Virus record (IMG/VR): IMGVR_UViG_3300033148_003642
Coordinates: 1-29,282 of that record
From: a virus
Length of the DNA: 29,282 bases
Reading direction: 5' to 3' (one strand)
Part shown: positions 2,525-29,282 of the stretch, piece by piece
Numbering within the stretch: the stretch's first letter is position 1
Layout of the letters: each line of letters opens with the position of its first letter
The notes under the pieces: model-generated
Database searches by the model: none
Seen by the model: the letters and a program-made list of their open reading frames with translations, nothing else
What the model was told of the DNA's origin: nothing
Made by a program: the position numbers and the translations under genes

Positions 2525-2536
2525 GCGAGCCTCCTC

Positions 2537-3055: not shown

Positions 3056-3201
3056 TTCTTACTCCCAATCTCATTTTTAATATAGTACCGAGCATACGCC
3101 TTAGCCGCGATTAATAGCCACCCTCCAACATCGCGCCAAAAACTACCTGTAGGCTGAGGTTTTTCTTCAAGGAACTCTTTTACTGCTTTTTCATCTGACA
3201 T
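3049..3201 (-). CDS. Small protein with hydrophobic segment, 50 aa
   Basis: ATG at 3201 is preceded by AAGGAGG. The product is acidic over residues 1-14, then has a short hydrophobic/aromatic stretch (GGWLLIAAKAYARYY, about 26-40) and a basic end. The gene fills the space between the large ejection-type gene and the hydrolase and overlaps the hydrolase start by 7 nt. A weak membrane-association signal is present. The function is unknown; a holin would normally be more hydrophobic. Confidence 0.6.
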   Translation of the reverse strand: MSDEKAVKEFLEEKPQPTGSFWRDVGGWLLIAAKAYARYYIKNEIGSKKW

Positions 3202-3210
3202 TAGGCCTCC

Positions 3211-9526: not shown

Positions 9527-9701
9527 TCCCTAACTTAATAAATAATTCATTGTTGTAATACGCCATAGTATTAGCTTTCATCTCAGATGCACTTGTGGGT
9601 GTAGCCGTAAGCAAAATAATATTACCCATAGCATTTTGGGAAATATGGTCTAATGCTGAATTGAGGTCTTTATCTTGAATTTTCCTAGGGAATCTTTCCA
9701 T
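9489..9701 (-). CDS. Small tail-associated-type protein, 70 aa
   Basis: Start coupled to the upstream stop (TAATG at 9701). The C-terminal half has the form 'TPTSASEMKANTMAYYNNELFIKLGNGELKKFTVT'-like (positions about 34-67, abbreviated), a pattern I have seen in short proteins of environmental phages near tail-fibre genes. It predicts a small beta structure. No enzymatic motif. Function unknown; a tail accessory is likely from context. Confidence 0.55.
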   Translation of the reverse strand: MERFPRKIQDKDLNSALDHISQNAMGNIILLTATPTSASEMKANTMAYYNNELFIKLGNGELKKFTVTAV

Positions 9702-10108
9702 TATTCCGTATAGTTCCCGGGTAGCAACCCTTCGTCTATTAACTCCTTGATAGCGTCTTTACGCCCTTTGTCTTTTTTAATTTTAACAGCGCGCCCTATA
9801 ATCAACTTATCCTGTTGCCCCTTTAAGGCTTTAGTCTGGTTTACCCCAAGGCCGTTCCAGGGATCACCTTCCCAAGCATTTCGATCTGCCCTATCCGGTA
9901 ACATGGATGAGTCCATATCATCATAAGGTAACCCGATTAAGGTTGGGTCAGCACCTAGAGCTTCCTCTATACAGTAATCCCACGTCACGCTGGGGCTACA
10001 CGATCTTACCTTCACGGACTTATCTGGATAATACCAAACTCGGCGGGTATCAGCGTAAGCAACACCAACGGCTAAGATTAAAACAAAAGTTAAAATATAT
10101 TTTCTCAT
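9701..10108 (-). CDS. Exported tail-fibre-region protein with signal peptide, 135 aa
   Basis: The start at 10108 follows AAGGAGG. Residues 1-19 form a clear signal peptide (MRKYILTFVLILAVGVAYA) with a likely cut before DTRR. The mature part begins with VWYYPDKSVKV and later has SSMLPDRADRNAWEGD. Both elements recur in small cytoplasmic-looking phage proteins near tail fibres ('YYPDKSV', 'LPDxRxxRNAW'); here they are fused to an export signal. The C-terminus is charged and helical. The role may be tail-fibre assembly or attachment; the export signal is the odd part. Confidence 0.6.
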   Translation of the reverse strand: MRKYILTFVLILAVGVAYADTRRVWYYPDKSVKVRSCSPSVTWDYCIEEALGADPTLIGLPYDDMDSSMLPDRADRNAWEGDPWNGLGVNQTKALKGQQDKLIIGRAVKIKKDKGRKDAIKELIDEGLLPGNYTE

Positions 10109-10117
10109 AAAACCTCC

Positions 10118-11197
10118 TTATTGTGTTCCACAAGCTATGCAGCAAAGTGGGTCTGTATCTTCAGCAGCGGGAACGGCAGAAAAAGTATGTATTCTCGCAC
10201 TTCCAGTAGCTAATGCATTTATCCTAGTTGAATCGGATACTGACATACACGAGACAGCATAATCTGCATTAGTAAAATCAGTGTCCCAGGTGATAGTGTA
10301 CTCTCCTACACCCTCATCTGTTATCCCTGAGACATTAAAGGAATCGTCATCAGCTATTACCCCTGTACCGTCCAAATTTATCCACCCTTTTACTCTTGCA
10401 TCAAAATTTCCTCCTTCCGTCCAGGTCTTAATAGCCTTCTGTGTAGGTACTGCATCATCTGAATTGCCCGCTAATGTAGCGTCTGTTGAAAAATTAGTAA
10501 TATCTGCACCGGAAGAAAGTACCAATCCACTAGCATTTATCTGCGCTCTTTGTACATCAGCAGTTTTAAACCTGATTATATCCTCATCAGTATTTGCTTC
10601 CGTGTCTACAGAAGTATCGGAATCAGCGTCTTGTATCAAAGATGTATTAGATAGATTAATACCTGTAATCCTATCGTCTCTCACAGAAGAAACGGTGGTA
10701 GTATCAGACGATACCCTTGCTATTCTTATTGAGTTAGTTGCTACTACCGGTTCTGTTGCCTGTATTGCTACCTCTGAATAAGTATATGTACCATTGTTTG
10801 ATAAGTCTACAAAGGTATGCTTAGACGCTGTGTAAACCTTTGGTGTTGCGTCTTTAAGTACACGAGTGCCTAAGACATAGGCTGTACCTAACGTGGTAGT
10901 AGAGGTTAAGCTTGCACTTGTGGGAATGGTTAATCCGGTAAAAACAAAGTCATTAAACGCTTCATCCCAGCGATTTGTAGGATCTGCATTATCGTCAAGT
11001 GCTGTTGCCGGGATTGTACCAGCTTGTAGCAAAGCTCCATCTGCACTATTGATACCCGTCTCAGCGGTGGTAAAATTAGTTTGGAGATTATAAACGGTCA
11101 CGTCATCCGCAGTAAGTACATCGATCATTGTTACTTGTCCAAAGCAAACAGACGAATAAACAAAAGCCCCTATCAAAAATACAATAATTCTTTTCAT
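10118..11197 (-). CDS. Exported fibre-like protein with signal peptide, 359 aa
   Basis: The start chosen is ATG 11197, at good distance from AGGAGG; a GTG at 11203 overlapping the previous stop sits too close to that site. Residues 1-20 form a signal peptide (MKRIIVFLIGAFVYSSVCFG) with cleavage before QVTM. The mature protein is Thr/Ser/Asp/Ala-rich with beta-repeat character (TSASLTSTTTLGTAYVLGT) and the 'GTIPATALDDNADPTNRWDEAF' type segment seen in phage fibre shafts. The C-terminal 90 residues look like a beta domain, including a Cys-Cys near the end (DPLCCIACG). Likely a tail fibre or surface appendage. It follows the nozzle gene. Confidence 0.6.
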   Translation of the reverse strand: MKRIIVFLIGAFVYSSVCFGQVTMIDVLTADDVTVYNLQTNFTTAETGINSADGALLQAGTIPATALDDNADPTNRWDEAFNDFVFTGLTIPTSASLTSTTTLGTAYVLGTRVLKDATPKVYTASKHTFVDLSNNGTYTYSEVAIQATEPVVATNSIRIARVSSDTTTVSSVRDDRITGINLSNTSLIQDADSDTSVDTEANTDEDIIRFKTADVQRAQINASGLVLSSGADITNFSTDATLAGNSDDAVPTQKAIKTWTEGGNFDARVKGWINLDGTGVIADDDSFNVSGITDEGVGEYTITWDTDFTNADYAVSCMSVSDSTRINALATGSARIHTFSAVPAAEDTDPLCCIACGTQ

Positions 11198-11199
11198 CG

Positions 11200-12723
11200 T
11201 CACCCTCCTATTACTTTTATTTTCTTACGACTTTTAAGAACAAAATCTATCCCCATGCCCAACAACTCCGGCTGTAAATCATTTATATTTGCATCAATCT
11301 CAAACGCTATGCTTGAACCTCTAGCATAATCTATCTTAGGTCTCACCCTGCCTGTAAATTGGCTTTGGTTACCTATTTCTATATACCCTAGAGTCTTGGT
11401 TTCTCCTCTTAAATTCTGTATCCAAGATGTTTGTTCACCGCTTGGCTGCGAGATCCTTCCGTCTAAATGGTACATGATTATAAAGTTCATATCACCCGTA
11501 GGCACAAACTCAGGATAGAAAGCTAAAAATCTTACGTTTTGTCCCTTAGCTACGGTTAAATCCCTGGTGCGTAGTTTTGTATGTATTGCCACGCCGTCGA
11601 ACCTTCTGCCTCTATCACCATGCATTATAAAGTTTGAGTCAGAGCGGCAAAGTAATTGAAAATCGGTCTCCTTAGCCGAGTCACTTCGCATAAAAGCAGA
11701 GACATTACGGCCCTTTACAACATCAACATTGCCGGTTAAAGCATCATACCAGACCTCATAATTAGGTTCAGTACGTCCTTTCTCTACAAAACTGACTTGG
11801 TAATAATTGTTAAAAACTCCCGCAGAAGCCTTATCTAATTTATCCCTTACAGTTTCTACAAAATCCTTCATCTTCAATTCAAAGGTCAACATCTGTGCAG
11901 CGTTGCCATCCCATGACCATAGCTCATAATCATCTGCCATAAATATTATAGCCTTCTCTACCTTAGCAGCAGTACGCCCCGCAATGATGCTTCTTTCTTC
12001 AATAAGCCTAACCTCAAACGTAATCGCAAGCGCACTGATAACATCACCTATCACAACGAATATTCCTTCGGTATTGAATATGTAAAGTTTATCTTCAATT
12101 TTGCCTAAAGCAAGATTCTCCCCACGGCCCGAACCTACAATTATGTTAAGGCTGTCCGTTGCATCGTCAAATACGGTAGGTTCTAAATTCTTTGACACAT
12201 GGAGATCTGTCCTAGATATCATCCATAACCTATCTTTATGCTCTGCAACATCTATAGGCTTGAGTGAATTACCGTTTGCATCGGCCACCCCGGTTATATC
12301 AAACCTATTATCATTATTGCCGTCATATTCAACGAGGTTGACCCCGTCTACAAGATACATCTTAGTCTGGTTAGCCGTCTTAAAAAGCTGATGTTTAGGA
12401 TAAGCATTTAATGCCAGGTTCCCCCTTAGCTCTGTACGCGTGTTGAGAACATCATCTATAAGCCATATAAATCCATCCTCGGTATAAGCGAAAGTCTTAG
12501 GTGACACTATACTCGCCTCGTTGGTGTAATACCTTCCGGACCAACGTGGTATACCAGACATAGCCGATGTAAAAACTTTCTCTGTACCTAATGGGATTTT
12601 AAGCCTTCCATCGCGAGACAACCAATTTTCTCTTAATACCGGACTATCAGATTTCCCCTCATTTGATGGCGTGCGCCTGTCTATCTTACCGTTAAATTTA
12701 GTATAAAAATTTTTAGGTGGCAT
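11200..12723 (-). CDS. Tail nozzle/tube beta-propeller protein, 507 aa
   Basis: The start at 12723 follows GGGAG. The protein shows repeated blade-like segments (KMYLVDGVNLVEYDG; DRLWMISRTDLHVSK; KLYIFNTEGIFVVIGD; AIIFMADDYELWSWDG; NYEVWYDALTGNVDV), each a Tyr/Trp-rich beta strand ending in a turn. The 'DKLYIFNTEGIFVV' element is typical of podovirus tail-closure proteins of the P22 gp10 / T7 gp12 type, which close the tail after packaging. N-terminal RRTPSNEGKSDSPVLRENWL also fits phage proteins that begin with 'GLNTR...' anchors. No signal peptide. Assignment by pattern and synteny. Confidence 0.65.
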   Translation of the reverse strand: MPPKNFYTKFNGKIDRRTPSNEGKSDSPVLRENWLSRDGRLKIPLGTEKVFTSAMSGIPRWSGRYYTNEASIVSPKTFAYTEDGFIWLIDDVLNTRTELRGNLALNAYPKHQLFKTANQTKMYLVDGVNLVEYDGNNDNRFDITGVADANGNSLKPIDVAEHKDRLWMISRTDLHVSKNLEPTVFDDATDSLNIIVGSGRGENLALGKIEDKLYIFNTEGIFVVIGDVISALAITFEVRLIEERSIIAGRTAAKVEKAIIFMADDYELWSWDGNAAQMLTFELKMKDFVETVRDKLDKASAGVFNNYYQVSFVEKGRTEPNYEVWYDALTGNVDVVKGRNVSAFMRSDSAKETDFQLLCRSDSNFIMHGDRGRRFDGVAIHTKLRTRDLTVAKGQNVRFLAFYPEFVPTGDMNFIIMYHLDGRISQPSGEQTSWIQNLRGETKTLGYIEIGNQSQFTGRVRPKIDYARGSSIAFEIDANINDLQPELLGMGIDFVLKSRKKIKVIGG

Positions 12724-13266: not shown

Positions 13267-13857
13267 TTAATATATCATTATCATTTTCCCACGAGTAGTG
13301 GCAGTAGTATAAAATGCATATATCGCCAACAACCCAGTAAAACTGCCAGAACTAACCCCCCATGGACTAGGCAATGCTGTCTGTGATGTTTTGTAATCTC
13401 TCTTTGGAGTACCTGCTGAGTCTCTGTCTAATCTCGTTGCTCCACCAGCATCATTATCACACTGCATACACAACCAATATATTGTGTTCGGGGCTAGAGC
13501 TATGCTCAACCCCGCTTTCGTTTTCCAACCCACACCTGCTGATAACGCTCCTGCTGTAGACGATCCAACCAAAGCATCTGGTCTATCATTCCCGGCATCG
13601 TGAGTATATATACCTAACTCAAAATCCGGTGTATTCCCCGGGTTAGTGCTTATGTATGCACCCATTGCTGTTATTGTAGTCATGTCCGCGGGAGAGGTCA
13701 CTTTCATTGAAAAGGCTAAGGTATCTATTTGAGTATCGGCAGAACCGTCCGGATCAGCCACAGGGGCTGTTGTCACAAAACCAGAGTTGACACCATCTAC
13801 TAAAGCGCCGTAAGCTGGAAAAGACAATAATAAAAAAATTAATAATAGCTTAGTCAT
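13267..13857 (-). CDS. Exported beta-rich protein with signal peptide, 196 aa
   Basis: The start chosen is ATG 13857, overlapping the upstream stop by 8 nt (ATGACTAA); an upstream in-frame TTG at 13875 is less likely. Residues 1-17 form a signal peptide (MTKLLLIFLLLSFPAYG), cut before ALVDG. The rest resembles a carbohydrate-binding-like beta-sandwich: FSMKVTSPADMTTITAMGAYI, PDFELGIYTHD, APNTIYWLCMQCDN. Such domains occur in phage tail tips and host cell-surface proteins. It is co-translated with the 283-aa exported protein, suggesting a shared structure or place. Confidence 0.6.
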   Translation of the reverse strand: MTKLLLIFLLLSFPAYGALVDGVNSGFVTTAPVADPDGSADTQIDTLAFSMKVTSPADMTTITAMGAYISTNPGNTPDFELGIYTHDAGNDRPDALVGSSTAGALSAGVGWKTKAGLSIALAPNTIYWLCMQCDNDAGGATRLDRDSAGTPKRDYKTSQTALPSPWGVSSGSFTGLLAIYAFYTTATTRGKMIMIY

Positions 13858-14701
13858 AATCGTAACGAATCTCAAAGCACGCCTGTTTTATCGCCGTATT
13901 CGGAGCGCTGTCAAATGATATATATATAGTTTTCCCCGCGGCTACTCCCCCAGATGTAATACTATCATCGGCCAATACTCCGGCTGTAGTATCGAAAGTA
14001 TTTACTACCACCGGGTTAGCTAGTCCAATGAAAGTATCTGCGTATTTTAAATCACCGGCAATCTCATTCGCTGCTGAATCTAGCGTGACTGTTATTTTAG
14101 TTATGGTGATGTCCGCATCAGTTACCGGCCAAATACAGATCTCATTGTCCTCTGTTTGCGTAGCAAGAGGGTCTACAAGATTAAACCGTAAATACTTAGG
14201 TTCACTTGAAATGTTTCCTGTGATAACTGGTGTTGCTATAGTCGGAGTAGTGCCAAACACCCACGCGCCTGTCCCTGTCTCATCAGACACACGGCCGATC
14301 CAATTAGCTGATGTAGTCTGATCAATATTTGCGTAGGTATGATTATGGCTATCGTCTACCACATAAGCCTTAACATCATCCGGCCCACCTGCACCACCGT
14401 CAGTCCGTGTAAAGGTGACATCTGTATCGTCTTTAAAGTTAGCTACTGAGTCTACATTAACCCCATTGACTGTAACACTATCCCCACTCCCGCCAGTTAG
14501 TACAAGAGAAACCGTGCCATCGGAATTGTCAGTGAGCGTTCCATTGGTGACTTTGACTTTTGATATGTCCAGCACAGACGGCGCTCCATCCTCTTCTTCC
14601 ATAGATACAGCCCTATCAAGCCCTGTTATAGTAGGTTGCATCACTGCATAGCTATAGAATGTAAAAACACAAAGCAAAAGCAAAATGCATATTTTTTTCA
14701 T
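13850..14701 (-). CDS. Exported fibre-like protein with signal peptide, 283 aa
   Basis: The start at 14701 follows GAGGTAAGA. Residues 1-19 form a signal peptide (MKKICILLLLCVFTFYSYA). Next come VKVTNGTLTDNSDGTVSLVL, a short module also present as DNSDGTVTV near the N-terminus of the 958-aa fibre, and a Gly/Asp-rich beta region (GDSVTVNGVNVDSV). The C-terminal half (from about 180) is a compact beta domain with KYLRFNLVDP and DITITKITVTLDSA, similar in style to receptor-binding or collar-type domains. Likely a fibre or appendage. It is one of several exported proteins in a row. Confidence 0.6.
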   Translation of the reverse strand: MKKICILLLLCVFTFYSYAVMQPTITGLDRAVSMEEEDGAPSVLDISKVKVTNGTLTDNSDGTVSLVLTGGSGDSVTVNGVNVDSVANFKDDTDVTFTRTDGGAGGPDDVKAYVVDDSHNHTYANIDQTTSANWIGRVSDETGTGAWVFGTTPTIATPVITGNISSEPKYLRFNLVDPLATQTEDNEICIWPVTDADITITKITVTLDSAANEIAGDLKYADTFIGLANPVVVNTFDTTAGVLADDSITSGGVAAGKTIYISFDSAPNTAIKQACFEIRYDYD

Positions 14702-15556: not shown

Positions 15557-15916
15557 TTATTGCGACATATCCTTATTAATCAACTTCTGCGCTGTACTTT
15601 TCATCAACGTCTTTAGCCATACCGGGGATCTGCTATATACTTCCGTTGTCGTATACGTTGTGTTTGAAATATCTCCGAAAGGATATATATCTGATTCGGT
15701 GACTCTTACACCACCAGTATTAGCCCAGCCCTCTATCTGCACCGCATAAGGATAATATTCCTTCTCTCTTGATGTAAAATTATAGGTCGAATATGGCATA
15801 ATTATATTTGTCTTAAATTTTATATCGTCTACATTCTCAAATGTGATTACCCTTTGGGCCAATACTGTTACGGTGATAAGCAATGTTACTATTGATAAAC
15901 AAATAATTCTTTTCAT
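15557..15916 (-). CDS. Exported protein with signal peptide, 119 aa
   Basis: The start at 15916 follows AAGGAGGTGG. Residues 1-20 form a signal peptide (MKRIICLSIVTLLITVTVLA), cut before QRVITF. The mature 99 residues are beta-rich and Tyr/Thr-rich (YSTYNFTSREKEYYPYAVQI; SNTTYTTTEVYSR) and end in a helical basic tail. No known motif. It directly follows the 958-aa fibre in the operon (11-nt gap), so it may be a small partner, cap or chaperone of that fibre. Confidence 0.6.
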   Translation of the reverse strand: MKRIICLSIVTLLITVTVLAQRVITFENVDDIKFKTNIIMPYSTYNFTSREKEYYPYAVQIEGWANTGGVRVTESDIYPFGDISNTTYTTTEVYSRSPVWLKTLMKSTAQKLINKDMSQ

Positions 15917-15927
15917 AACCCACCTCC

Positions 15928-18804
15928 TTACGATACAACTCCACCTAGATTATCAGCAACGCCTCTTATAATCATCTTATGCAAGAACGCACTTGCACCT
16001 AGAGTGTCTGTTAATTCATCACCCAATCTATAAATTTTTAGTCCTAATACTTTATCTCCCGCATCAAAAGCTGCCGTAGGGATAACACAGGTAGAATGAA
16101 CCAAACCATTTGCATTTCCTGAGCTTTCATGCAAACAAGGAACATCGGTTACGGCGGTATCAGTCATATCTTCACCTGCCGCTTTGATTTGATAACCTAT
16201 TTGCCAGTAACAATCTTCTGACGTTGTCGGGCTATCCCATACTAAAATAACTTCCATATTTTCAGTATCATCCCATCTTCCAGTGATCCTCATGCTTGCG
16301 TGGATATGATCTTGGTTGCCATCTGTAAATTCATAAGCTGTGCTTACCCCTCTATTAACAAGAGTTGCTGAATTGGCTGGTGGTTCTTTAAACCCTGCGG
16401 AATCTATTTCAAAGCCTATCCAATATCTTCCATCACCTGTCATTGTCATTCTGCCAGCGTTACTAATGATTGTGGTATCCGTTCCGGCTCCAAAGGTAGA
16501 GCTTCCCGCTACATCTAAATCACCCAAAGCCCATACAGGAGCATTCATCTCTATGCCTATTGTGGCGCCTATATTAACCCAACCATCTAAGCCAGAGTCT
16601 ATGTATTCATTACCGTCTGTTTGAGTTAATACTATTTTTCCTTTGGTATTGATAGTCCCCGCGTTAATGGTTAGGAATTGGTTCTCAACTACTGCATCAA
16701 AAAAGCCATAGATAAGGGCTTCTGCTCTTGCCTCTGCTTCGGTACTTCTGTCAATACTATCAATGAATAATTTATAAGTAGCAGTTTCATATAGACCAGC
16801 ATTATTTCCGATAGATACACCATAGTCTGCTACCTTAGTGACATTACCAACTGCTACGGCATAATCTGTATCAACATCATAAGCACGAGAATAATATCCA
16901 AGCATTGTATTTCTCTCGCCTGTTGTAAGATTGCCACCAGTTGAATATCCAAACAAAGCGTTTTTGTTTCCATTGGTTCTCAAAGCTGTTCCTGAGTAAG
17001 TTCCGACACATGTGTTATAACCGATATTGCTTGCCCCATTTGCACCAGTGCCTGAATAACCACCTACAAATACATTATAGTTTCCGCCTGCGGTGTATCT
17101 TCCAGCATTGTGTCCTAATCCTGTGTTTACAGTGCCAGAGGTAAACTGTAAACTATTCTGTCCAATAGCAATAGTATTAAGTGCAGAAGTGCCACAATTT
17201 ACCATTGGGTCATATCCTATCGCCACATTTGATGTACCAGTTTCTAAGGCTCTTCCTGCGTGGAGTCCAATGAGAGTATTGCCTAAGCCTGATAACTCTA
17301 AATTAGCTCCTGCCTCTGAACCTATAACAACGCTATTCCCAGAAATCCCTGCACCTGCACCCATCATGGTTGATGTAGCACCGATGATTAAGGCAGGTAC
17401 TCCGTCTTGCAGAATCATCGAGTTAGTGGTATTGCTTTGTGCGTAGAGATAGACCCTACCACTGACTTCCATTGTTGCGTCAGATATGTTGTCTATATAT
17501 TCCGTTGTGGTGTTGTTTGATACTGTGGCTAGGTGATACTCTTTATAATTCGCTTCACCTGCTTTAGTTCTGTAAATCTTCCTAGAAGTAACACGATAAT
17601 CAGGGCTTACAGAGATAGTTACTGTGACCTGTTGTTTACCTGCAACTACAGTTATTGAGTCAGCTGTACTTCGTTCTGTTTCTCCAAAAGCAGTTTCATA
17701 GGTAACGTAGTAATAGTGAAGTCCAGCGTCAACGTTCCCTGCTGTGTCTATTTCTACTGCTACAGGGGCATTGGGTTTGGTTACATAGTTAAAGTCTATA
17801 CCTGTATCTACAATGCCATATTCTGTACTGGCTATACCGTAAATATGGAGTGCAGAACTTCCATCGTTCAAGGTTACACCATCAGTGACTGAACCAAATG
17901 TTCCTTGGCCTTCAGTTGTAAGATTCTCATTGCCAAAACTGATGCTACCGCTTGAGTCTATAATGGTTCCACCATAGATAGACATTGTTCCAATATAGGC
18001 ATTTAAAGAGGTAACTGAATTATCAAAATTACCCCCTCCAGCGTTGTCTATCCAAGACTGGCCTGATAAGTCTATGAAGGCATAGGTATCTCCACCAAGC
18101 AAAACTCCTTGGGTATCTCCGTTACTACGGAAGATTCCAGCGAAAGTATTGCCACCGAAAGTTGACCCTCCTAACTCTGCATAGTATGAATTGCCGAAAG
18201 ACCCAGTATTTGAAGTATAGACTGAGCTATCATTAAAATTGGCAGCCCCAGGATTTGACCAATTGAAGACGGCATCGGAACCATTGCTTGCGTAAAGTAT
18301 TCTGTTAGCTATATCTACTGACAGAAGAGGGCTGCTATCGGTTAATCCACTGTCAAAGCGCCCTGTGCCTGTGGTTGTAAAATCACCAGTCCCGGCAGAT
18401 ATATCAACATCCGCTCCTGATATATTGCCTACCCAGCCATAATTTCCAAACTGTATTACTGTTGTGCCGTCTGTAACCCCGGTATCGAATGCGCCTGAAC
18501 CAGTAGTATCAATATCAAATGATCCGTCCTTATCCCCTGTTAGCCCGGTATCATTCACATACTTGCGCCAGAATACATCTGATAAAGCCGTATCAAGATT
18601 GACCGTAACTGTACCGTCAGAGTTATCCTGAACGCCGCCGTCCGGGGAGAATCCAATGCTATACGGGTTGAAAACAGAGGTACTATCGTCTGATATTATC
18701 AAAACTCTAGTCTCAAAGATATTGTCTTGTGCTTGTACGTTTAACGCAAAAGCAAAAACTAAAAGTAACTTAAATATACTCAACAATCCTGATTTCACTA
18801 ACAT
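15928..18804 (-). CDS. Large exported tail fibre with trimeric-adhesin-like roll, 958 aa
   Basis: The start at 18804 lies inside the end of the previous gene. Residues 1-25 form a signal peptide (LLSIFKLLLVFAFALNVQA), cut before QDNIF. Parts in order: a DNSDGTVTV module near 60; repeated 'xFDxGVTD' shaft units to about 330; a fibronectin-like segment (YYVTYETAFGETERS, about 365-455); then about 480-690 a YadA-head-like left-handed roll with repeats such as GLGNTLIGLHAG, NVAIGYDPM, NTGLGHNAG and YNVFVGGYSG; and a C-terminal beta domain (from about 800; DCYWQIGYQIKAAGE). This is the architecture of a trimeric receptor-binding fibre. No S74 autochaperone or beta-barrel translocator was seen, so it is not itself an autotransporter. 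Export by Sec of a phage fibre is unusual. Confidence 0.75.
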   Translation of the reverse strand: MLVKSGLLSIFKLLLVFAFALNVQAQDNIFETRVLIISDDSTSVFNPYSIGFSPDGGVQDNSDGTVTVNLDTALSDVFWRKYVNDTGLTGDKDGSFDIDTTGSGAFDTGVTDGTTVIQFGNYGWVGNISGADVDISAGTGDFTTTGTGRFDSGLTDSSPLLSVDIANRILYASNGSDAVFNWSNPGAANFNDSSVYTSNTGSFGNSYYAELGGSTFGGNTFAGIFRSNGDTQGVLLGGDTYAFIDLSGQSWIDNAGGGNFDNSVTSLNAYIGTMSIYGGTIIDSSGSISFGNENLTTEGQGTFGSVTDGVTLNDGSSALHIYGIASTEYGIVDTGIDFNYVTKPNAPVAVEIDTAGNVDAGLHYYYVTYETAFGETERSTADSITVVAGKQQVTVTISVSPDYRVTSRKIYRTKAGEANYKEYHLATVSNNTTTEYIDNISDATMEVSGRVYLYAQSNTTNSMILQDGVPALIIGATSTMMGAGAGISGNSVVIGSEAGANLELSGLGNTLIGLHAGRALETGTSNVAIGYDPMVNCGTSALNTIAIGQNSLQFTSGTVNTGLGHNAGRYTAGGNYNVFVGGYSGTGANGASNIGYNTCVGTYSGTALRTNGNKNALFGYSTGGNLTTGERNTMLGYYSRAYDVDTDYAVAVGNVTKVADYGVSIGNNAGLYETATYKLFIDSIDRSTEAEARAEALIYGFFDAVVENQFLTINAGTINTKGKIVLTQTDGNEYIDSGLDGWVNIGATIGIEMNAPVWALGDLDVAGSSTFGAGTDTTIISNAGRMTMTGDGRYWIGFEIDSAGFKEPPANSATLVNRGVSTAYEFTDGNQDHIHASMRITGRWDDTENMEVILVWDSPTTSEDCYWQIGYQIKAAGEDMTDTAVTDVPCLHESSGNANGLVHSTCVIPTAAFDAGDKVLGLKIYRLGDELTDTLGASAFLHKMIIRGVADNLGGVVS

Positions 18805-19120
18805 CTGCCCCTGCTGTTACAAGAAAAATATTGAATGAACCTTTAACTTTAAGGAATCTTATCTTACTCCTGGGATAAAAAGCAATCCCATTTGCTGAAG
18901 ATACTCCTGAACCTCCATAATAAATTACCTTACTTCCCGCATTTTCAAATTCTATGCTACCTTTACCCGCTCCGATTATAAATTGATGCACACCGGATGT
19001 TATATTTACAGGCGTTCGATGTGATGCCGCACCTATCTCCGCTATAGCCGTTACTTTCCCACCTTCTGCGTTTACATCACCTTCATTGAATAAAGGTTCT
19101 AAACTTTTGTTTGTACTCAT
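18770..19120 (-). CDS. Small beta-sandwich tail protein, 116 aa
   Basis: The start at 19120 overlaps the previous stop (ATGA) and has no clear ribosome-binding site, so coupling is likely. The sequence VHQFIIGAGKGSIEFENAG, KVIYYGGSGVSSANGI and FLKVKGSFNIFLVTAGADVSEIRIVE matches a short beta-sandwich pattern I know from small phage tail proteins ('VYFGGSGVTSxxGIPL ... GxFNLYLIA'). No signal peptide. Probably virion-associated, with the large fibre gene starting inside its 3' end. Confidence 0.6.
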   Translation of the reverse strand: MSTNKSLEPLFNEGDVNAEGGKVTAIAEIGAASHRTPVNITSGVHQFIIGAGKGSIEFENAGSKVIYYGGSGVSSANGIAFYPRSKIRFLKVKGSFNIFLVTAGADVSEIRIVEYI

Positions 19121-19725
19121 TTTAGTTTTAATTTAGTAAGCTCAAGTTTGATACGCTTTTCTTGGGTTTGTATCCACAAATCCCTTGCACCTAATATATG
19201 CTCTTTGTTTATCCTCTCCCGCTCTTTCTTATCAAAAACCTTTTCTTTAAGCCTTAAAGCATCCTCTCTTTGATCGTGTTCAGTACGTTTCTTTTCAAGA
19301 CGCTTGGAGTCTGTGCCTAACAATGTAGTTTTAAGCTCATAATTTTTCGTAATGGCTTCCTGTTTTCTTCTTTCATCTATGGCCAGGTCTCTTTCACCCT
19401 CGACAGTGCTTAGGGCCAAGTCTGATTTAGACTTATTGAATGATAATGTATTATTCAATTTGTTATGTTTTGATATTTCCTTCCCTAACTGAGTTTTTAT
19501 ATTTATAACTTCAGTTTGTTCTTTTACTAATTTCTCTACCTCTATCTTTAATTTACGATTGTTGCTTTTCTCTTGATCTTTCAAAACACCGTTTTGACGG
19601 CGGACTTCGAGTATATGCTTCTCTAGCTCTTTCTGTTTAAGTGCCAGGGCATCGTGAAACTTCTTCAGCTCAACCGCATACTTGTCTGTAACGTGAGACA
19701 ACTCTTCTTTAATAAATTTAAGCAT
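19117..19725 (-). CDS. Long coiled-coil protein B, 202 aa
   Basis: The start at 19725 overlaps the end of the ligase-like gene by 8 nt. It is Lys/Glu/Leu-rich throughout (EELSHVTDKYAVELKKFHDAL; KEQTEVINIKTQLGKEISKH) and predicts one long coiled coil with no membrane segment. It shares length, composition and an IKT-L--E-S---KL---L segment with the 188-aa protein at 14969, so a duplication is plausible. Role unknown; fibre shaft or assembly factor are options. Confidence 0.55.
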   Translation of the reverse strand: MLKFIKEELSHVTDKYAVELKKFHDALALKQKELEKHILEVRRQNGVLKDQEKSNNRKLKIEVEKLVKEQTEVINIKTQLGKEISKHNKLNNTLSFNKSKSDLALSTVEGERDLAIDERRKQEAITKNYELKTTLLGTDSKRLEKKRTEHDQREDALRLKEKVFDKKERERINKEHILGARDLWIQTQEKRIKLELTKLKLK

Positions 19726-20887
19726 AGGTCTCCTTTTTCATTGATAGTTCGAACAAAGCAAAGCCCGGAATTATGAAACACGCTGTCCTGGCAAGAAACA
19801 TCGGGAAGTGTGCTAGACTGATCAATAAGACAATAGCACAAAATGCCCCAAGGGCTAGAGTCTGGTCACTCTTCATCGAGTACCTAAACATTCTAAAAAG
19901 ACTATACACATAACCGAATAAAAACACCAAACCGAATACCCCCCATTCAAAAAATAAAGATACATAAAGATTGTGAGGGTTATCCCATTTGTGTACGTTT
20001 TGATGCAATACATTCTTTGACCATGTTTTATTTACTTTCGTTGCGAAGTTAAACGTCTTGGTTTTAGTTATGTTTCTAAATGAATCCAATCCCCAACCGG
20101 TTATGGGCCTCACAGTTGCTTTCCTAAGCACTACCTGCCATTGGCTGAGTCTTGCTCTCTGCGGTCTGTCTACCCATTTTAAATACGAGCCTCCACCTAT
20201 TAATAAAACGATAACAATACCCCACCAGAGCTTACGCGGGACTCTGAAGAAAGAAACAAAAATAAGCCCTATTATTGCGATTAAAAGGCAACTTGATGCT
20301 TTGGATAGGTAAAGACCGGCAAAGGCCAGGACAAGGGTCATTTTGCCCCATTTTGACCGCCTCATAGCGCATATCGGGACAGCTAACGCGCATAAATACC
20401 CTAGAATAGACGCATGCCCCATAAACCCGGTAGGCTTTAAATTAATAGCATGATTTTTCCATGCCGTAGCAGTGAGAAAGTTTTCCCCATAGATAAAATC
20501 ATACCCCGCTAGTTGGATAAAAGCGTATAGTACATTTATCGACATTAGGACAACAATCGCATTGAAGAAATATTTTATATGTTTTTTCTTAAAATATGTT
20601 TTTGTCAGGTAGTAAAGAATTGAACAGTAAAATATGTTAGACAAATAGGTATGGCCTGTCTCAAACTTGAAAAAGCAAAATAGGAATAATGTCCACCAAA
20701 GAAAACCTGTCAGCCAGATGTTTCTCAGCAATAGGCCGAATATAACAGAGATAGCTATAGTCATCACGAATTGCTGTGCTTCTCTTTCGTGCATGCCCTG
20801 GACTGTCACAATACAGAGAAAGCATAAGGCTATAATAAAAGCTCTGATTACTTTAGGAGAGTATGTCTCTAGTATTTGTTTTATCAT
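19718..20887 (-). CDS. O-antigen polymerase/ligase-family (Wzy_C) membrane enzyme, 389 aa
   Basis: A polytopic membrane protein with about ten to twelve hydrophobic segments. Near residue 305 it has NPHNLYVSLFFEWGVFGLVFLFG, the 'HN..y......E.G..G' signature of the Wzy_C/O-antigen ligase superfamily, and before it a periplasmic-loop segment ITGWGLDSFRN, also typical. The superfamily contains Wzy polymerases, WaaL ligases and PglL/PilO protein O-glycosyltransferases, which all use undecaprenyl-linked glycans in the periplasm; the sequence alone does not say which. The start at 20887 overlaps the adaptor stop by ATGA and the stop overlaps the next gene by 8 nt, so it is a built-in part of the late operon. 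Phage D3 uses a Wzy of this type for seroconversion. Its position among exported proteins is notable. Confidence 0.8.
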   Translation of the reverse strand: MIKQILETYSPKVIRAFIIALCFLCIVTVQGMHEREAQQFVMTIAISVIFGLLLRNIWLTGFLWWTLFLFCFFKFETGHTYLSNIFYCSILYYLTKTYFKKKHIKYFFNAIVVLMSINVLYAFIQLAGYDFIYGENFLTATAWKNHAINLKPTGFMGHASILGYLCALAVPICAMRRSKWGKMTLVLAFAGLYLSKASSCLLIAIIGLIFVSFFRVPRKLWWGIVIVLLIGGGSYLKWVDRPQRARLSQWQVVLRKATVRPITGWGLDSFRNITKTKTFNFATKVNKTWSKNVLHQNVHKWDNPHNLYVSLFFEWGVFGLVFLFGYVYSLFRMFRYSMKSDQTLALGAFCAIVLLISLAHFPMFLARTACFIIPGFALFELSMKKETYA

Positions 20888-21585
20888 GCTATTGGGATTT
20901 TCGGGCTAAAGTATGATATATCCGGTGAACGTGATTGACATTGCTGGTTCATCCCTATATTCTTAGCCGCCCCGATTATCAATTCATCTTTTAACTCTTT
21001 AACTTTGACCTTAGCAGCAGAGATACCAGTTGTATTACTATCATCTAAAAACTCTTTTAGCTCAGCTACGCCCATAGCTATTACTAATGGATCGTATTTA
21101 TTTTCAAAAGGTGAACTGCCGCCTGATATCACATCTGTTAATAATTTAATATAATCTAAAACTATCAGATCAGCAGTAGCAACGCTAGGCGTAGGGCCGA
21201 GATATAATTTATTATCCCATAAAGCGCATACGTCAGGGGTTGCAGCTGAGTCGGCAGAAGGATCGGGGAATAAATCTCTGTATCTGCTAAACGGTATTAG
21301 TTCTATAACACTATCATTAGTACGCTCTGTAAATTTGAATGGTTGGCTGAAATCTACCGGTAAAGCAGATATATCTATATATTCTTGATCTGCTACTGGC
21401 GTTAGGGTGGTTGATTCCGATATGTCATCTAAAAGGCTATGGTCTAAAAATAGCTGCTTAATGACTTTCAGCGCATCGTTGATTATGTCTATGGCTAAGG
21501 TGTCCAAGGGTGTGTCGTTAGACACATTATAATCAGCTCTGCGTTTTATCTTCGCGACTAGATTGTCTATTGTTGATTTTGCCAT
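20884..21585 (-). CDS. Head-tail adaptor (connector) protein, 233 aa
   Basis: The start chosen is ATG 21585 with GGGAGGAC just upstream; an in-frame TTG at 21597 is less likely. The helical N-terminus (DNLVAKIKRRADYNVSNDTPLDTLAIDIINDALKVI, abbreviated) is followed by a beta part (YIDISALPVDFSQPFKF) and LWDNKLYLGPTPSVATADLIVLDYIK, then a helical C-terminus. This is the organisation of P22 gp4 / T7 gp11-type adaptors, which bind under the portal and start the tail. It lies after capsid genes, as expected. Assigned by architecture and synteny. Confidence 0.6.
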   Translation of the reverse strand: MAKSTIDNLVAKIKRRADYNVSNDTPLDTLAIDIINDALKVIKQLFLDHSLLDDISESTTLTPVADQEYIDISALPVDFSQPFKFTERTNDSVIELIPFSRYRDLFPDPSADSAATPDVCALWDNKLYLGPTPSVATADLIVLDYIKLLTDVISGGSSPFENKYDPLVIAMGVAELKEFLDDSNTTGISAAKVKVKELKDELIIGAAKNIGMNQQCQSRSPDISYFSPKIPIA

Positions 21586-21872
21586 TTGTCCTCCCAATAT
21601 TTATTAGGTTTGTTAATAACGGTCATTATTATACTAAGTTCAACATCACTAACTGGATTATACGTATAGATAACGTATTCCGCCCCTTTGTTGATAATAA
21701 ATCCCCATGAGCCAACTGTCCTTTCGTTTGGGTCTAAGTCAACCTTAAACCCATTTTTTGCAAACTCTTGCTGTATTGCTTTGGGGTAACAAGAGAAAGG
21801 AATAGCCAACTCATCAGGATGAGCGGTAAAGGTAATCAATGTGAAAAGAATTAATATAAATATATTTTTCAT
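21567..21872 (-). CDS. Small exported protein with signal peptide, 101 aa
   Basis: Residues 1-17 are strongly hydrophobic after MKN (IFILILFTLITFTA), a likely signal peptide, though the cut site is unclear. The mature part (FSCYPKAIQQEFAKNGFKVDLD, WGFIINKGAEYVIYTYNP) is a small alpha/beta protein with one Cys. Its 3' end overlaps the adaptor gene by 19 nt. A strong GC hairpin lies just upstream, and only a weak site (GGTG) precedes the ATG. Function unknown. Confidence 0.6.
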   Translation of the reverse strand: MKNIFILILFTLITFTAHPDELAIPFSCYPKAIQQEFAKNGFKVDLDPNERTVGSWGFIINKGAEYVIYTYNPVSDVELSIIMTVINKPNKYWEDKWQNQQ

Positions 21873-21942: not shown

Positions 21943-22539
21943 TTACTCACATTTCAAAAACACTTCTACGTCATCATCCCCAGCTGTACCATTGTCCATG
22001 AAAAATCCAGCGTTGCCTTGTCTGTGTGATTCACCAATACCAGCAGCATTAGTTGAAGTCCAGCCACTAGCTTCACCCAGCGTAGTACCTGTACCCATTG
22101 CTCCACCTGCAAAACCGCCAAGAGAAGCATCAACTCTGACTTCCGCCATACCATAGGTCTGCAAGAAAGTCCAGTTGTCTTTGCCTCTGTCCTGTGCGGC
22201 GGTATTACCTGAAGTGTCTTGAGTAAGACAGTTATTCACGATAATACCTGCAACAGTGGTATCCCCGGAAATCGTAGTCAGTTTGATTGTAACACCGTCA
22301 TCAACAACGGTATCCCAAACGACTATTGACTCCGCGGCAATAGTAGCCGATGTAGCCTCAGCCTCAACCCCTGTACCAAGATACCTAACAACCCTAAACC
22401 TTTTAGGTGCGGTATTCTGGTAAGACATGCTGATAAGTTGGCCATCACCCGGCCCGGTGCGATTACCTGGTGTCTGTGCAAAAACGTATCCCCCAAAAAG
22501 AAGGGACACGATAGCTAAAGAAAGTATAATCTTTCTCAT
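21943..22539 (-). CDS. Capsid decoration-like protein with signal peptide, 198 aa
   Basis: The start at 22539 follows AGGAGGG. Residues 1-21 form a signal peptide (MRKIILSLAIVSLLFGGYVFA), cut before QTPGN. The mature part is beta-rich: KRFRVVRYLGTG, TIKLTTISGDTTVAGIIVNN, then FLQTYGMAEVRVDASLGG. The 'v.GI....v.tyG.a.V.vd' flow resembles DUF2190-type capsid-decoration proteins, and position directly after the capsid gene fits. Two Cys are present (one near the C-terminus). A signal peptide on a capsid protein is hard to explain, because decoration normally happens in the cytoplasm. Alternatively it is an abundant exported protein unrelated to the capsid. Confidence 0.6.
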   Translation of the reverse strand: MRKIILSLAIVSLLFGGYVFAQTPGNRTGPGDGQLISMSYQNTAPKRFRVVRYLGTGVEAEATSATIAAESIVVWDTVVDDGVTIKLTTISGDTTVAGIIVNNCLTQDTSGNTAAQDRGKDNWTFLQTYGMAEVRVDASLGGFAGGAMGTGTTLGEASGWTSTNAAGIGESHRQGNAGFFMDNGTAGDDDVEVFLKCE

Positions 22540-22549
22540 TTTATCCCTC

Positions 22550-23638
22550 CTATGTGGTTGCTACGCCAGTTGCTACAAAGTGAGCAGCTGGTAAATCAGT
22601 GTCTAAATTACCAAAGAACCAGAAGAATAAGCCTCTGTTCAGGCCGTTTCCAATGGGTCTAAAACCTTTGGGATCCCAAATAAAGTTTCCATCTCTTAGA
22701 GCTTTCAACTTCATGTGGTTAGAGTTAACACCGTACATATACCCTGCGGTAATGGTATTAGCTCCACCCTTAGTCACTAGATTCTCAAAACCAATAGTCG
22801 TATTGCCTAGCTGAATGGTCTGAATCTTTAACTGGGCCATTTTGTCATCCGGGCGTAATCTCTGCAATGTAGCTAAGTATCCTGACAAACCCGAGAAGGT
22901 GTTCGAGTCCAGGATAACAAGATCGACTGCATCATTAGCGCCTATAGTCTGCTCGATGATTAACTTAGTCATAGCTTGGATACCTGCTTCAGAACCTATG
23001 TCGGTAATACCTGCGGTACTAGCGCCGTTCTGCAAAGCTGCATTGGTGGCTCTTGTCTGACCGCCAACGGTTCCAACAAGAGGGGTAGCTGAAATCAAAT
23101 TAGGTACACTTTCCGGCTCTAATGCACCCGGAGCAGTGTTCCAGAAAGCTGAGTTAAATTGGTTAGGGATAGTAGATTTAGCTTGTTCTCGTTGATCCAT
23201 AACCCAATCTCTCATCATAGCGCGACCTTTAACCATAGCTTTATGTTTTTCATTAATAACCATAGCGCCTGTAAAGGTCTGAATCGGGAAACGTAAGCGA
23301 AGATTAGGGTCTTGAAGATTAGCTGGTATTTCTGTTGTGTGAGATCTCCAACCAAAGTTAGTATTCTCAGTACCTCGTAGTGAGTTCCAAAATTCCAGGC
23401 CACCGCTAAGCAATTTATACCTTTTCTTTTCCTTTAACGCAGCAAAAAGAAAGTTAGTATTTATAATGCCATCGCCCTGTGTCCCGAAATCCGGTACAGC
23501 AGATACCAGTAATGATTCAAGAGCATCTTCATTAGTTGTTGCATATTCAACATTAGTAACAAACATAGCGTTACCCCATACGCAGTAATGCATAAATTTT
23601 GTTACTAGGCCAAATATACCAATGCTAAAGATATTCAT
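22550..23638 (-). CDS. Major capsid protein, 362 aa
   Basis: The start at 23638 follows AGGAGTG. Near the N-terminus are NTNFLFAALKEKKRYKLLSGG and EFWNSL; near the C-terminus YMYGVNSNHMKLKALRDGNF, KGFRPIGNGLNRGLFFWFFGNLDTDLP. This C-terminal run ('MYfvNt..lkL......F......P.nqda......GNL') is shared by a widespread set of environmental phage coat proteins with the HK97-type fold. It lies between a scaffold and a decoration-like gene. The first 25 residues are unusually hydrophobic (IFSIGIFGLVTKFM); a second Met at 25 could be an alternative start but has no good site. Confidence 0.75.
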   Translation of the reverse strand: MNIFSIGIFGLVTKFMHYCVWGNAMFVTNVEYATTNEDALESLLVSAVPDFGTQGDGIINTNFLFAALKEKKRYKLLSGGLEFWNSLRGTENTNFGWRSHTTEIPANLQDPNLRLRFPIQTFTGAMVINEKHKAMVKGRAMMRDWVMDQREQAKSTIPNQFNSAFWNTAPGALEPESVPNLISATPLVGTVGGQTRATNAALQNGASTAGITDIGSEAGIQAMTKLIIEQTIGANDAVDLVILDSNTFSGLSGYLATLQRLRPDDKMAQLKIQTIQLGNTTIGFENLVTKGGANTITAGYMYGVNSNHMKLKALRDGNFIWDPKGFRPIGNGLNRGLFFWFFGNLDTDLPAAHFVATGVATT

Positions 23639-25374: not shown

Positions 25375-25591
25375 TAACCCTCCAATTAGACAAGACCTCT
25401 CTTCTAACAACTTTTAAAACGGCCCGAACAGTTTGCCTATCTATTTCTTTAGTTTCGTCATTTAACAAGGTATAGTCACCTTTAGTCCAATATTCTTTGC
25501 CTTTGCGTTTCTTATAAAACTCACAATAAGCTTTATGCACGGCCTCGCTACACTCTTCAACCAATTCAGAAATTATATCAAACTCCAGCAT
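25364..25591 (-). CDS. Hypothetical protein, 75 aa
   Basis: The start at 25591 lies 14 nt inside the portal gene and follows AAAGGAG. The product is a charged helical protein (ISELVEECSEAVHKAYCEFYKKRKG) with a basic C-terminus (KVVRREVLSNWRV). The 3' end overlaps the zinc-ribbon gene by 11 nt. No motif recognised. A portal-linked morphogenesis accessory is possible by position. Confidence 0.6.
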   Translation of the reverse strand: MLEFDIISELVEECSEAVHKAYCEFYKKRKGKEYWTKGDYTLLNDETKEIDRQTVRAVLKVVRREVLSNWRVNGI

Positions 25592-27419
25592 TCGCTCTCC
25601 TTTCAGCCTCAGCCTGTCTTTCTGCGTCCTCTTCCGGGCTTATCTGCTCCTCTCCGGCCTGTACAGCATTGGGGTCTGGTGGTGGTGGTGCGTCTACGAA
25701 TAGCACTTCCGGAGTAAAGCCAAACTGTTTACTGATCTTAGCTATCTCATCTGTGTTAATTGTCTTACCTTGGGCCTGGAATAAGGGTAATAGACCAGCT
25801 AGCTCTTTAATAAATAATATGGCCTCATTTCGCTTTCTCTCCTTGTTTGGGCGTAGAGCCGAAGATATATCGACTTTGACCCAATAATCGCCTGTAAGCA
25901 AGTCTGAGAGCGGATTAAGCACCATTTCCTGACCTGTCATAGGATTCACCGCTGTCTGTGGCTCATACCATGACATCTTTTCTTTACCAGTTATTTTAAA
26001 GAATATAGGTTTATCCCAAAATGTAGCTATCAAATCTTTGCCGGAGTCTAGTTGTTCTTGGATGAAGAATCTTAAACCTTCTTGGATGTCAGCAGTCTTT
26101 TCCTGGAAGCCCGCTTCTTGTATTTTAAGCCCTGTGGCGAACTTTTCATTAGCTTTACCTTGTAGCCTTGAGGTGGAAACACCCCATCCTTTCTCTGACC
26201 TGGTTTGGAATAGGGCGAATTGCTCTTTGTTTTCGTTGGATACTGGAGTAGGTACTAAGGGGATAATCGTGCCGGTAGGTGGCCCATCTGCCTCTACAAT
26301 ATCATTGACCTTAGTGCTTTTTAGAGATTCCTTAGCCGCATGTTTGATTTTCTTACCGTCTACAAGGTATTTGGGGATATTCCTCTTAGCCACCTCTGCT
26401 TGGAATCTGATATATTCATTCATCTCATCGCTCATCTTCTTGTTTATCTGAGCCATGGAAGTCGGATAAAGTCTACCGTATTTGTGTAATGTGCCTATCT
26501 TCATGTCAAAACCATTGGTGACATACGGTCTTTTGAACATATCAAGCTCTTCTTCTAAGATGCTAGGAGCTATAACAAGGTTCCAATAACTGCCGTCCTT
26601 CTTCTTGATTTGGAACTCATAGACGAACATCTTACCAGAACGGCTCTCTTTCTCATGCATGGAGTATCTAAATCGTCCATTGGAGTCTGTGACACGGCCA
26701 GCAAACTTAGGATAGGTGATGTTAAACTCTTCCGGGGACATCCAGACTTTCTTGAGATTGTATCTACGGTCTATGATTCGCTCAGCGCGCCAGTCCAAAG
26801 GTACATTGACAGGATCCCAACGTCTGATATATGTGCCTGTGTTGGTAGCAGTAGACGATTCCTTGGGAGGTTGTGCCTTCTCAAGAGCTTCTTCCGCGGC
26901 TTTCTCGTCCTTTCTCTTGAATATGCCTGTAGCACGTTCCATTAATGTTTTACGTTTGGCTAAATCCTGTTCTGACGGTAATAAATCCTTTTTACTGCCT
27001 GTGCCGGGGTTATATTGTCCTACTTCTATACACCCTATACCGGAATACAACATATCAAACAAAGCTACACGATTTTCTACGATAGCATGGCTTTTATCAA
27101 ACCAATAGCTCAATGCTGCTTTCATCAAATCCTCACCCTCTTCGGCTTCCGGTTTAGCGGCATCTACTACAATATCCGGGTTCTGATACATTATTTCAGA
27201 TATTAGTGCGTTGGTATTGGGGAAATGCTCGTTTATAATAGCTAGTCTTTGGTGAGTGTTTAGATGAGGGTGGGGGGCTTCTGCCCGGTCGAAGCCTTCG
27301 TAGTAGTTTATAAGGAAGGGGTAATTGTTGCGATGTAATAGCTCTTGCTGTTGTCTTTGTTCACATGAGCGGGCTTCACTCAACCAGAAATTTATCTCCG
27401 AAGCGTTTAGTTTCCCCAT
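25578..27419 (-). CDS. Portal protein, 613 aa
   Basis: The start at 27419 overlaps the previous stop (TAATG). Length and layout fit a podovirus portal, the dodecameric ring through which DNA is packaged. Supporting features: an N-terminal helical part with NALISEIMYQNPDIVV, a region with DMLYSGIGCIEVG, the domain around RRWDPVNVPLDWRAER and YRYSMHE-like segments, and helical EMNEYIRFQAEVAKRNIPKY near 350. The C-terminal part has DYWVKVDISSALRPNKERKRNEA, which is typical of portal crowns, and an acidic/Ala-rich end. It follows the terminase and precedes the scaffold, as expected. Confidence 0.8.
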   Translation of the reverse strand: MGKLNASEINFWLSEARSCEQRQQQELLHRNNYPFLINYYEGFDRAEAPHPHLNTHQRLAIINEHFPNTNALISEIMYQNPDIVVDAAKPEAEEGEDLMKAALSYWFDKSHAIVENRVALFDMLYSGIGCIEVGQYNPGTGSKKDLLPSEQDLAKRKTLMERATGIFKRKDEKAAEEALEKAQPPKESSTATNTGTYIRRWDPVNVPLDWRAERIIDRRYNLKKVWMSPEEFNITYPKFAGRVTDSNGRFRYSMHEKESRSGKMFVYEFQIKKKDGSYWNLVIAPSILEEELDMFKRPYVTNGFDMKIGTLHKYGRLYPTSMAQINKKMSDEMNEYIRFQAEVAKRNIPKYLVDGKKIKHAAKESLKSTKVNDIVEADGPPTGTIIPLVPTPVSNENKEQFALFQTRSEKGWGVSTSRLQGKANEKFATGLKIQEAGFQEKTADIQEGLRFFIQEQLDSGKDLIATFWDKPIFFKITGKEKMSWYEPQTAVNPMTGQEMVLNPLSDLLTGDYWVKVDISSALRPNKERKRNEAILFIKELAGLLPLFQAQGKTINTDEIAKISKQFGFTPEVLFVDAPPPPDPNAVQAGEEQISPEEDAERQAEAERRANAGV

Positions 27420-28322: not shown

Positions 28323-28990
28323 CTATTCCCCCTCGCCTCTTGCATCTCCTTCATAAGGGTAGCTGCGCTTAACCTGTGAGGGGTTATTTTATATATTAAC
28401 TCTGTTTTGCTTTGCCTATTCATACCTATCCAGCGTAAACAATCACATAAATGACAATCTGCGTGAAATGGGGTTGCTTTCACATCCCCTCGTATTGTGA
28501 TCTTTGGTTCTGCCCAGTGATATCGTTCTAATTCCCATATTAAGTTAGTACAGCTTGAGAATATCTTTATCTTCCCGGCCTTAAACAGCTCACCTATTCT
28601 ATTGATACCCGCAAATACATCTGATTCTCCGGGGTAAGCTACTATACCGTTATCTCTGTATTCATCATGTAGGCTATACATCTGCCCTTCTTGGGGCCTT
28701 AGTTTAGCTTTAGATGCTCTATCAATGAGCCAGAATATGTCATCTTCTTTGATCTCATAAGCTATATCTGACACCCTGGCGTTGGCTTTGTAAAACTCCT
28801 TATAGATGATTATAACGCCGTTCTCATCGGTGAATGACTTCAATGCTCCTGTCGTACCTGTCATTGCCGGGTCTATTGCTCCCACTTTCTCATACATATC
28901 AGGTACATAAAACGGCTCGATTACATGGTCTTTATTGAACTCAGACCATATCAGGCCTACATAATCCTCAAAAGAGGCTTCATATTCCTG
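28319..28990 (-). CDS. terL: Terminase large subunit, nuclease part (frame-disrupted)
   Basis: This frame carries the C-terminal nuclease half of a phage terminase, in a different frame from the ATPase part upstream. It is best read from about 28990 (QEYEASFEDYVGLIWSE), which is the usual sequence right after the ATPase domain. The first ATG, at 28897, starts just before the first catalytic Asp (AIDPAMTG) and has no ribosome-binding site. Later acidic motifs: WLIDRASKAKLRP and HADCHLCDCLRW, the third being near the end. RNase H-like nuclease activity cuts concatemers during packaging. Without a frame shift it would be detached from its ATPase. It ends in an overlap with the next small gene. 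Confidence 0.75.
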   Translation of the reverse strand, partial: QEYEASFEDYVGLIWSEFNKDHVIEPFYVPDMYEKVGAIDPAMTGTTGALKSFTDENGVIIIYKEFYKANARVSDIAYEIKEDDIFWLIDRASKAKLRPQEGQMYSLHDEYRDNGIVAYPGESDVFAGINRIGELFKAGKIKIFSSCTNLIWELERYHWAEPKITIRGDVKATPFHADCHLCDCLRWIGMNRQSKTELIYKITPHRLSAATLMKEMQEARGNR

Positions 28991-29282
28991 CAGGTAATGT
29001 CTTACGCGCTTCCTCTATCTCTGCTAAGGGGATAAAGGGGTTGCAGCTTGTAGGTAATTGCCAACTCTCCCACCCTGGCTCTTTCCTCTGGCCTTTTAGA
29101 TACAATTCAAAGAACGAGTTTTTGCCTCTTGGTGTACCGATGAACATCCCACCACCTTGTCTATCTGAAAGCATAGGACGTAATATCTTAGGCCAGACAT
29201 GGGGTTTATACAACGCATATTCATCAGGTACGATGTAATCTAACCCTGTTCCTACTAAGCTATCTTCGTTATCACAACCTTT
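28980..29282 (-). CDS. terL: Terminase large subunit, ATPase part (partial, frame-disrupted)
   Basis: The gene enters the window from the right edge. Residues visible include a Walker B-like segment (LDYIVPDEYAL), the coupling motif MFIGTPRGKNSFFELY, and the SCNPFIPLAEIEEARKTLP stretch that normally leads into the nuclease domain. Walker A lies outside the window. The frame stops with LPAGI-TGA at 28980, while the following nuclease sequence continues in another frame from 28990. The join sits at CCTGCAGG (28987-28994). In relatives the LP and QEY elements are separated by about five residues; here about 14 nt seem missing. The motor that packages DNA is essential, so either this copy is broken or the sequence has an error. 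Confidence 0.8.
   Translation of the reverse strand, partial: KGCDNEDSLVGTGLDYIVPDEYALYKPHVWPKILRPMLSDRQGGGMFIGTPRGKNSFFELYLKGQRKEPGWESWQLPTSCNPFIPLAEIEEARKTLPAGI

Follow-up and report, generated by a model that had tools for sequence, protein, structure and literature searches.

The window analyzed here, 29,282 bases long, corresponds to a single virus record in IMG/VR. Between 28.9 and 2.5 kb almost all of its large genes lie on the minus strand and can be read as a virion operon, in the order terminase, portal, scaffold-like protein, capsid, two small proteins, adaptor, an enzyme resembling O-antigen ligases and polymerases, and then coiled-coil, spike, fiber, and tail genes. The features are the following.

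25578-27419, minus strand: portal protein (P22_portal, Pfam E = 1.3e-11)
22550-23638, minus strand: major capsid protein (phrog_9953, E = 8.6e-19; weak similarity to the Mx8/BUCT555 capsid)
21943-22539, minus strand: protein with a Sec signal peptide, encoded immediately downstream of capsid (alignment of nine sequences with aligned cleavage sites; predictor)
21567-21872, minus strand: small protein with a hydrophobic N-terminus, conserved between the capsid and adaptor genes (alignment; predictor)
20884-21597, minus strand: head-tail adaptor (SU10_adaptor PF24175, Pfam E = 1e-9; 4-nt overlap with the enzyme gene)
19718-20887, minus strand: Wzy_C-superfamily (O-antigen ligase/polymerase-like) membrane protein of 389 aa with an ATG start (PF04932; conservation; WaaL motif; hydropathy)
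19117-19725, minus strand: coiled-coil protein (8-nt overlap with the enzyme gene; weak homolog at L008:16975-17589)
15928-18804, minus strand: tail-spike-like protein with a hydrophobic N-terminal signal, MLVKSGLLSIFKLLLVFAFALNVQAQ (phrog_4636, E = 9.1e-10; N-terminus read directly, not called by the predictor)
15557-15916, minus strand: signal-peptide protein, function unassigned (predictor)
13850-14701, minus strand: signal-peptide protein, with partial similarity to an exported protein from contig L012 (comparison; predictor)
13267-13875, minus strand: signal-peptide protein, function unassigned (predictor)
11200-12723, minus strand: conserved tail-region protein lacking a signal peptide (identity 42-58% across all contigs)
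10118-11203, minus strand: tail-fiber-like protein with a Sec signal peptide (phrog_11355 tail fiber, E = 1.5e-8; signal-bearing homolog in all seven contigs)
9701-10108, minus strand: signal-peptide protein, function unassigned (predictor)

At ~28990-29005 of the window the terminase frame is split, and residues 102-200 and 202-403 of the L008 terminase match adjacent stretches in different frames, which reflects either an assembly error or a real frameshift. Small genes that appear, as read from the sequence, to code for acyl-carrier-protein-like and response-regulator-like products are found in contigs of relatives, at L053:8625-8936, L053:11755-12180, and L054:4300-4683.

The product of 19718-20887 matches the Wzy_C profile PF04932 over residues 184-324 in the Pfam profile search (E = 4.2e-12; 46.5 bits, above the curated cut-off of 31.7 bits), and the same profile is matched by all six of its homologs. 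This bears out the superfamily identity proposed in the preliminary description, which had also presented the gene as wired into the structural operon. Both overlaps behind that claim are indeed present in the sequence: the gene shares four nucleotides (ATGA) with the upstream adaptor gene and eight with the downstream coiled-coil gene. Late expression would be expected from this position. Hydropathy analysis predicts about 12 membrane helices and a single long loop (residues ~238-308) that contains R246 and H305. The loop is predicted to be periplasmic from the family rather than from this protein alone, because its abundance of lysine and arginine (11 on average) is contrary to the positive-inside rule. 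No family was found for the enzyme in PHROGs or NCBIfam, searches of phage records and the PDB with its sequence gave nothing useful, and the PDB had no match to its profile. The structure predicted from three sequences is too poor for use (pLDDT 45). In two contigs (L010:8019-8205 and L012:~9960-10028), the enzyme frame lacks ATG, GTG, or TTG at the conserved start; one finds there a purine run resembling a ribosome-binding site followed by AATATC, suggesting a rare start codon or a frameshift from the adaptor gene.

Related contigs were sought in IMG/VR by scans with the portal and capsid proteins and then with alignments, and seven were found. Four of the seven first came to light with the enzyme as query, a bias for any count of its occurrence; a scan using only the capsid returned the same seven, so that the count is independent of the enzyme-based search. 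A homolog of the enzyme, 35-45% identical to that of the window, lies directly after the adaptor in all six related contigs that reach this place (L002 ends earlier). Hence the gene is not a loose moron, as the preliminary description had stated, and the absence from related phages that would have pointed to a recent insertion is not what is found, since every related contig covering the place has it. The pairwise identities of the enzyme correlate with those of the portal, capsid, and tail genes (r = 0.80-0.92, vs 0.83-0.94 for those genes among themselves), a description rather than a test because the 21 pairs are not independent. The mean pairwise identity is 41% for the enzyme and 44% for the portal. 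In a phylogenetic tree that also took in 23 Omnitrophota proteins, E. coli WaaL, and D3 Wzy, the seven phage enzymes form a single clade with full support and a long stem (~1.8 substitutions per site), and all other proteins fall outside it. The best bacterial matches to the enzyme in the sampled Omnitrophota have E values of about 1e-11 to 1e-13. On the basis of these sequence comparisons, the enzyme gene is a core gene of the virion operon in an undescribed clade of tailed phages.

R246 and H305 are invariant in the alignment of the seven phage enzymes (the window and six homologs). In E. coli WaaL, residues R215, R288, and H338 are important (PMC3643930). The last two correspond to phage R246 and H305 by identical local spacing (proline at R+15, glycine at H+11 and H+14), and the position of R215 is basic (K, R, or H) in seven of the seven phage enzymes. 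In the solved WaaL structure 7tpg, local spacing makes R265 and H313 the counterparts of this pair, and the equivalent Arg270 and His300 are needed in a phage-derived Wzy-beta, where they are tied to activity (PMC4815439). The Arg/His pair is retained in nearly all aligned members of the superfamily, and the superfamily motif of Arg, His, Pro, and Gly is invariant across the phage proteins down to 34% identity. The phage enzyme is likely, judging from these residues, to be active as a glycan transferase. Neither the pair nor the motif is diagnostic of subtype, because they are common to ligases, polymerases, and protein transferases.

The enzyme shares with WaaL (E. coli NP_418079; PDB 7tpg/7tpj) the PF04932 domain, a large late loop, the Arg and His with identical local spacing, and a comparable number of predicted helices. 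However, hhalign shows no overall similarity between the two (probability 0.1%), and WaaL is encoded in the LPS-core locus, whereas the phage enzyme is encoded among virion genes. The O-antigen polymerase Wzy-beta of phage D3 is likewise phage encoded and has a Wzy_C-type motif with catalytic Arg and His, but it has 10 membrane segments, an Arg-His span of 30 residues (59 in the phage enzyme), and a PF04932 score below the Pfam cut-off (21.9 bits), and it is encoded on the opposite strand by a conversion gene. It falls in a separate clade and matches the phage enzyme with an hhalign probability of 4%; the dissimilarity to both WaaL and D3 Wzy is weak evidence, because each was compared as a single sequence. 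The third group, the PglL/PilO protein O-oligosaccharyltransferases, shares the superfamily and the catalytic Arg/His. A PxxGxG following the Arg is common to PglL/PilO and the phage enzyme, and also to 7tpg WaaL. None of the seven phage enzymes matches PglL_A (PF15864) at E 0.1, and they show no match to the extra C-terminal periplasmic domain of PglL type; PilO, however, functions without PglL motifs and also lacks PglL_A (PMC3643930). PglL genes usually adjoin the gene of their acceptor (PMC3643930), and the phage gene lies near candidate exported acceptors in the same operon in seven contigs. As to the placement among Wzy, WaaL, and PglL envisaged by the preliminary description, the enzymes form their own clade, cluster with neither D3 Wzy nor E. 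coli WaaL, and lack PglL_A. By sequence, the enzyme belongs to the Wzy_C superfamily and is not assignable to any one of the three.

Export signals are conserved on several members of the operon, so that the enzyme does sit among exported phage proteins, as had been proposed. Homologs of the exported proteins 21943-22539, 21567-21872, and 10118-11203 are found in L003, L008/L011, L010, L012, L013, and L014. The post-capsid protein has a signal peptide in all seven contigs, with cleavage sites that align in nine sequences despite their divergence. The fiber-like protein encoded after the tail gene also has a predicted signal peptide in all seven (the homolog for the L008 contig being L011:18202-19680, from an internal ATG). 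The 100-aa protein encoded before the adaptor has a clear Sec signal peptide in the homologs of most contigs; that of the window (21567-21872) has a poor cleavage site and is not called by the predictor. The predictor, which is home-made, recognizes four well-known exported proteins of E. coli. It found no signal peptides among the control structural genes of BUCT555 (0/21), Mx8 (0/14), D3 (0/20), and P22 (0/13), and in other controls only those of a holin (SU10) and a spanin (T7), a comparison that somewhat favors the contigs, where alternative starts were allowed, over the controls, where only annotated starts were used. Most of the conserved signal-peptide cases start at the first start codon. 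In the open-licence literature, no report was found of signal peptides on tailed-phage fibers as a feature of a group.

A 1250-aa signal-peptide protein of L014 matches virion-structural and spike families. Because of such fiber, spike, and virion-structural matches, some of the exported proteins are likely to be in virions. No link was established between the post-capsid protein and its positional counterpart in Mx8 or BUCT555, and by position only the former may be a decoration protein; its structure prediction (nine sequences, pLDDT 37) is too poor for use. In L012 its gene is duplicated in tandem (6065-6649 and 6713-7297). The exported proteins had also been described as rich in serine and threonine. 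The enrichment is real (a mean Ser+Thr of 18.4% vs 12.5% in other soluble proteins of the same operons) but modest, and it is weak evidence for glycosylation because ordinary fibers of T7, P22, and SU10 have 13.7-18.3%.

No donor-making, flippase, or initiating enzyme occurs among the families listed (25 of 41) for 79 further ORFs, so that a host glycan would be the likely donor for either role of the enzyme considered below. Some of the related contigs carry further sugar genes. L014 has, between its spike and tail genes, a sulfotransferase (PF13469, E = 8e-17) and a weak match to a family-2 glycosyltransferase (16423-17055 and 17182-18009); L008 has a cytidylyltransferase (494-1195; PF02348, E = 3.5e-21); and L002 has a weak PMT_2 mannosyltransferase-like match (2442-3473). 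These genes are not common to the clade and prove nothing alone. As for the host, the sole relative of the portal found in a genome collection of 84,980 species is on L009, a contig of 4 kb binned as Candidatus Omnitrophota, whose portal gene is 55-62% identical to that of the clade. Binning errors are common, so an Omnitrophota host is a hint; a capsid search in 384 Omnitrophota genomes found one distant phage of another kind.

The reading that we tentatively favor, at somewhat less than an even chance, is that the sequence describes an active, late, periplasm-facing glycan transferase that acts on the phage's own exported proteins. An inner-membrane Wzy_C enzyme, with its catalytic Arg and His toward the periplasm, would take a host-made sugar chain linked to a lipid (undecaprenyl-diphosphate) and transfer it in the periplasm. 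The likeliest acceptors would be the fiber-like and capsid-proximal proteins, which Sec signal peptides would bring to the same compartment, and the glycosylated products would be taken up into virions once the inner membrane gives way during lysis. We infer the activity, the host glycan as donor, the acceptor, and the assembly at lysis. That the enzyme and the exported proteins are enzyme and substrate is suggested by their conservation together in one operon and by their shared compartment, a link that counts once because it comes from one evolutionary lineage. The preliminary description had offered glycosylation of exported proteins as speculation, and it is still an inference here. The missing PglL_A motif, the lack of a match to a PglL-type C-terminal domain, and the modest Ser/Thr excess speak against it. 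We also know of no route that takes periplasmic proteins onto a tailed virion assembled in the cytoplasm, which counts against it as well. A mycobacteriophage is proposed to decorate its own virion with sugars by means of its own enzymes; the enzymes proposed there are ordinary glycosyltransferases acting on the capsid protein, and the abstract mentions no Wzy_C enzyme or exported acceptors (PMC11256854).

Nearly as likely as glycosylation of the phage's own proteins is remodeling of the host surface, a possibility we hold at distinctly under an even chance. Here the enzyme would ligate or polymerize an O-antigen-like glycan of the host and alter the receptor late in infection, thereby blocking superinfection or, as cells lyse, keeping new virions from adhering to debris and to infected cells. 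The Wzy-beta of D3 does alter the linkage of the host O-antigen (PMC4815439), P22 carries gtrABC, and both the catalytic pair, common to ligases and polymerases, and a probable host donor fit such a role. But the D3 and P22 genes stand apart from the structural operon, as units of their own on the opposite strand, whereas the present gene overlaps both of its neighbors in the window and occurs wherever its place is covered. Both of those phages are temperate, and no integrase was seen among the families listed for the 79 scanned ORFs (the contigs may be incomplete), so that lysogenic conversion has little footing. The position inside the operon and the separate clade also differ from a seroconverting Wzy of the D3 type.

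It is rather unlikely that the protein serves some different purpose in the membrane, for instance by inhibiting or competing with the host ligase or polymerase, or by helping to handle the coiled-coil and fiber proteins, its catalytic residues being kept to bind lipid-linked glycan. The tight overlap with the adaptor and coiled-coil genes and the long branch separating it from bacterial enzymes (the stem of ~1.8 substitutions per site) would suit such a factor, but a motif that stays invariant at so low an identity is what one expects of an enzyme. Least probable by far, and rejected here, is a recent moron or horizontal insertion that plays no part in making virions: many bacteria have Wzy_C genes and there are phage morons of this sort, but this gene is not patchy (seven of seven contigs carry it), overlaps its neighbors in the window, co-diverges with the structural genes, and belongs to a fully supported phage clade outside which the sampled Omnitrophota proteins fall.

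The O-antigen enzymes known from phages are products of conversion genes in temperate phages. Here, an enzyme of this type has a constant place in a virion operon, with which it co-evolves, beside exported fiber-like proteins. The Sec signal peptides on conserved virion-operon proteins, including the fiber-like one, are possibly more remarkable than the enzyme. In the complete scenario, the fibers and capsid-proximal proteins of the clade would mature outside the cytoplasm: they would leave it through Sec, receive a lipid-linked host glycan in the periplasm from the ligase-like enzyme of the phage, and be joined to the virion at lysis. This scenario is a good deal more doubtful than the action on exported proteins taken by itself. 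If the enzyme does modify exported proteins, tailed phages would have a maturation step outside the cytoplasm and would make a sugar coat of their own. If it acts on the host surface only, then remodeling of that surface can be a core function of a phage and not an optional extra.
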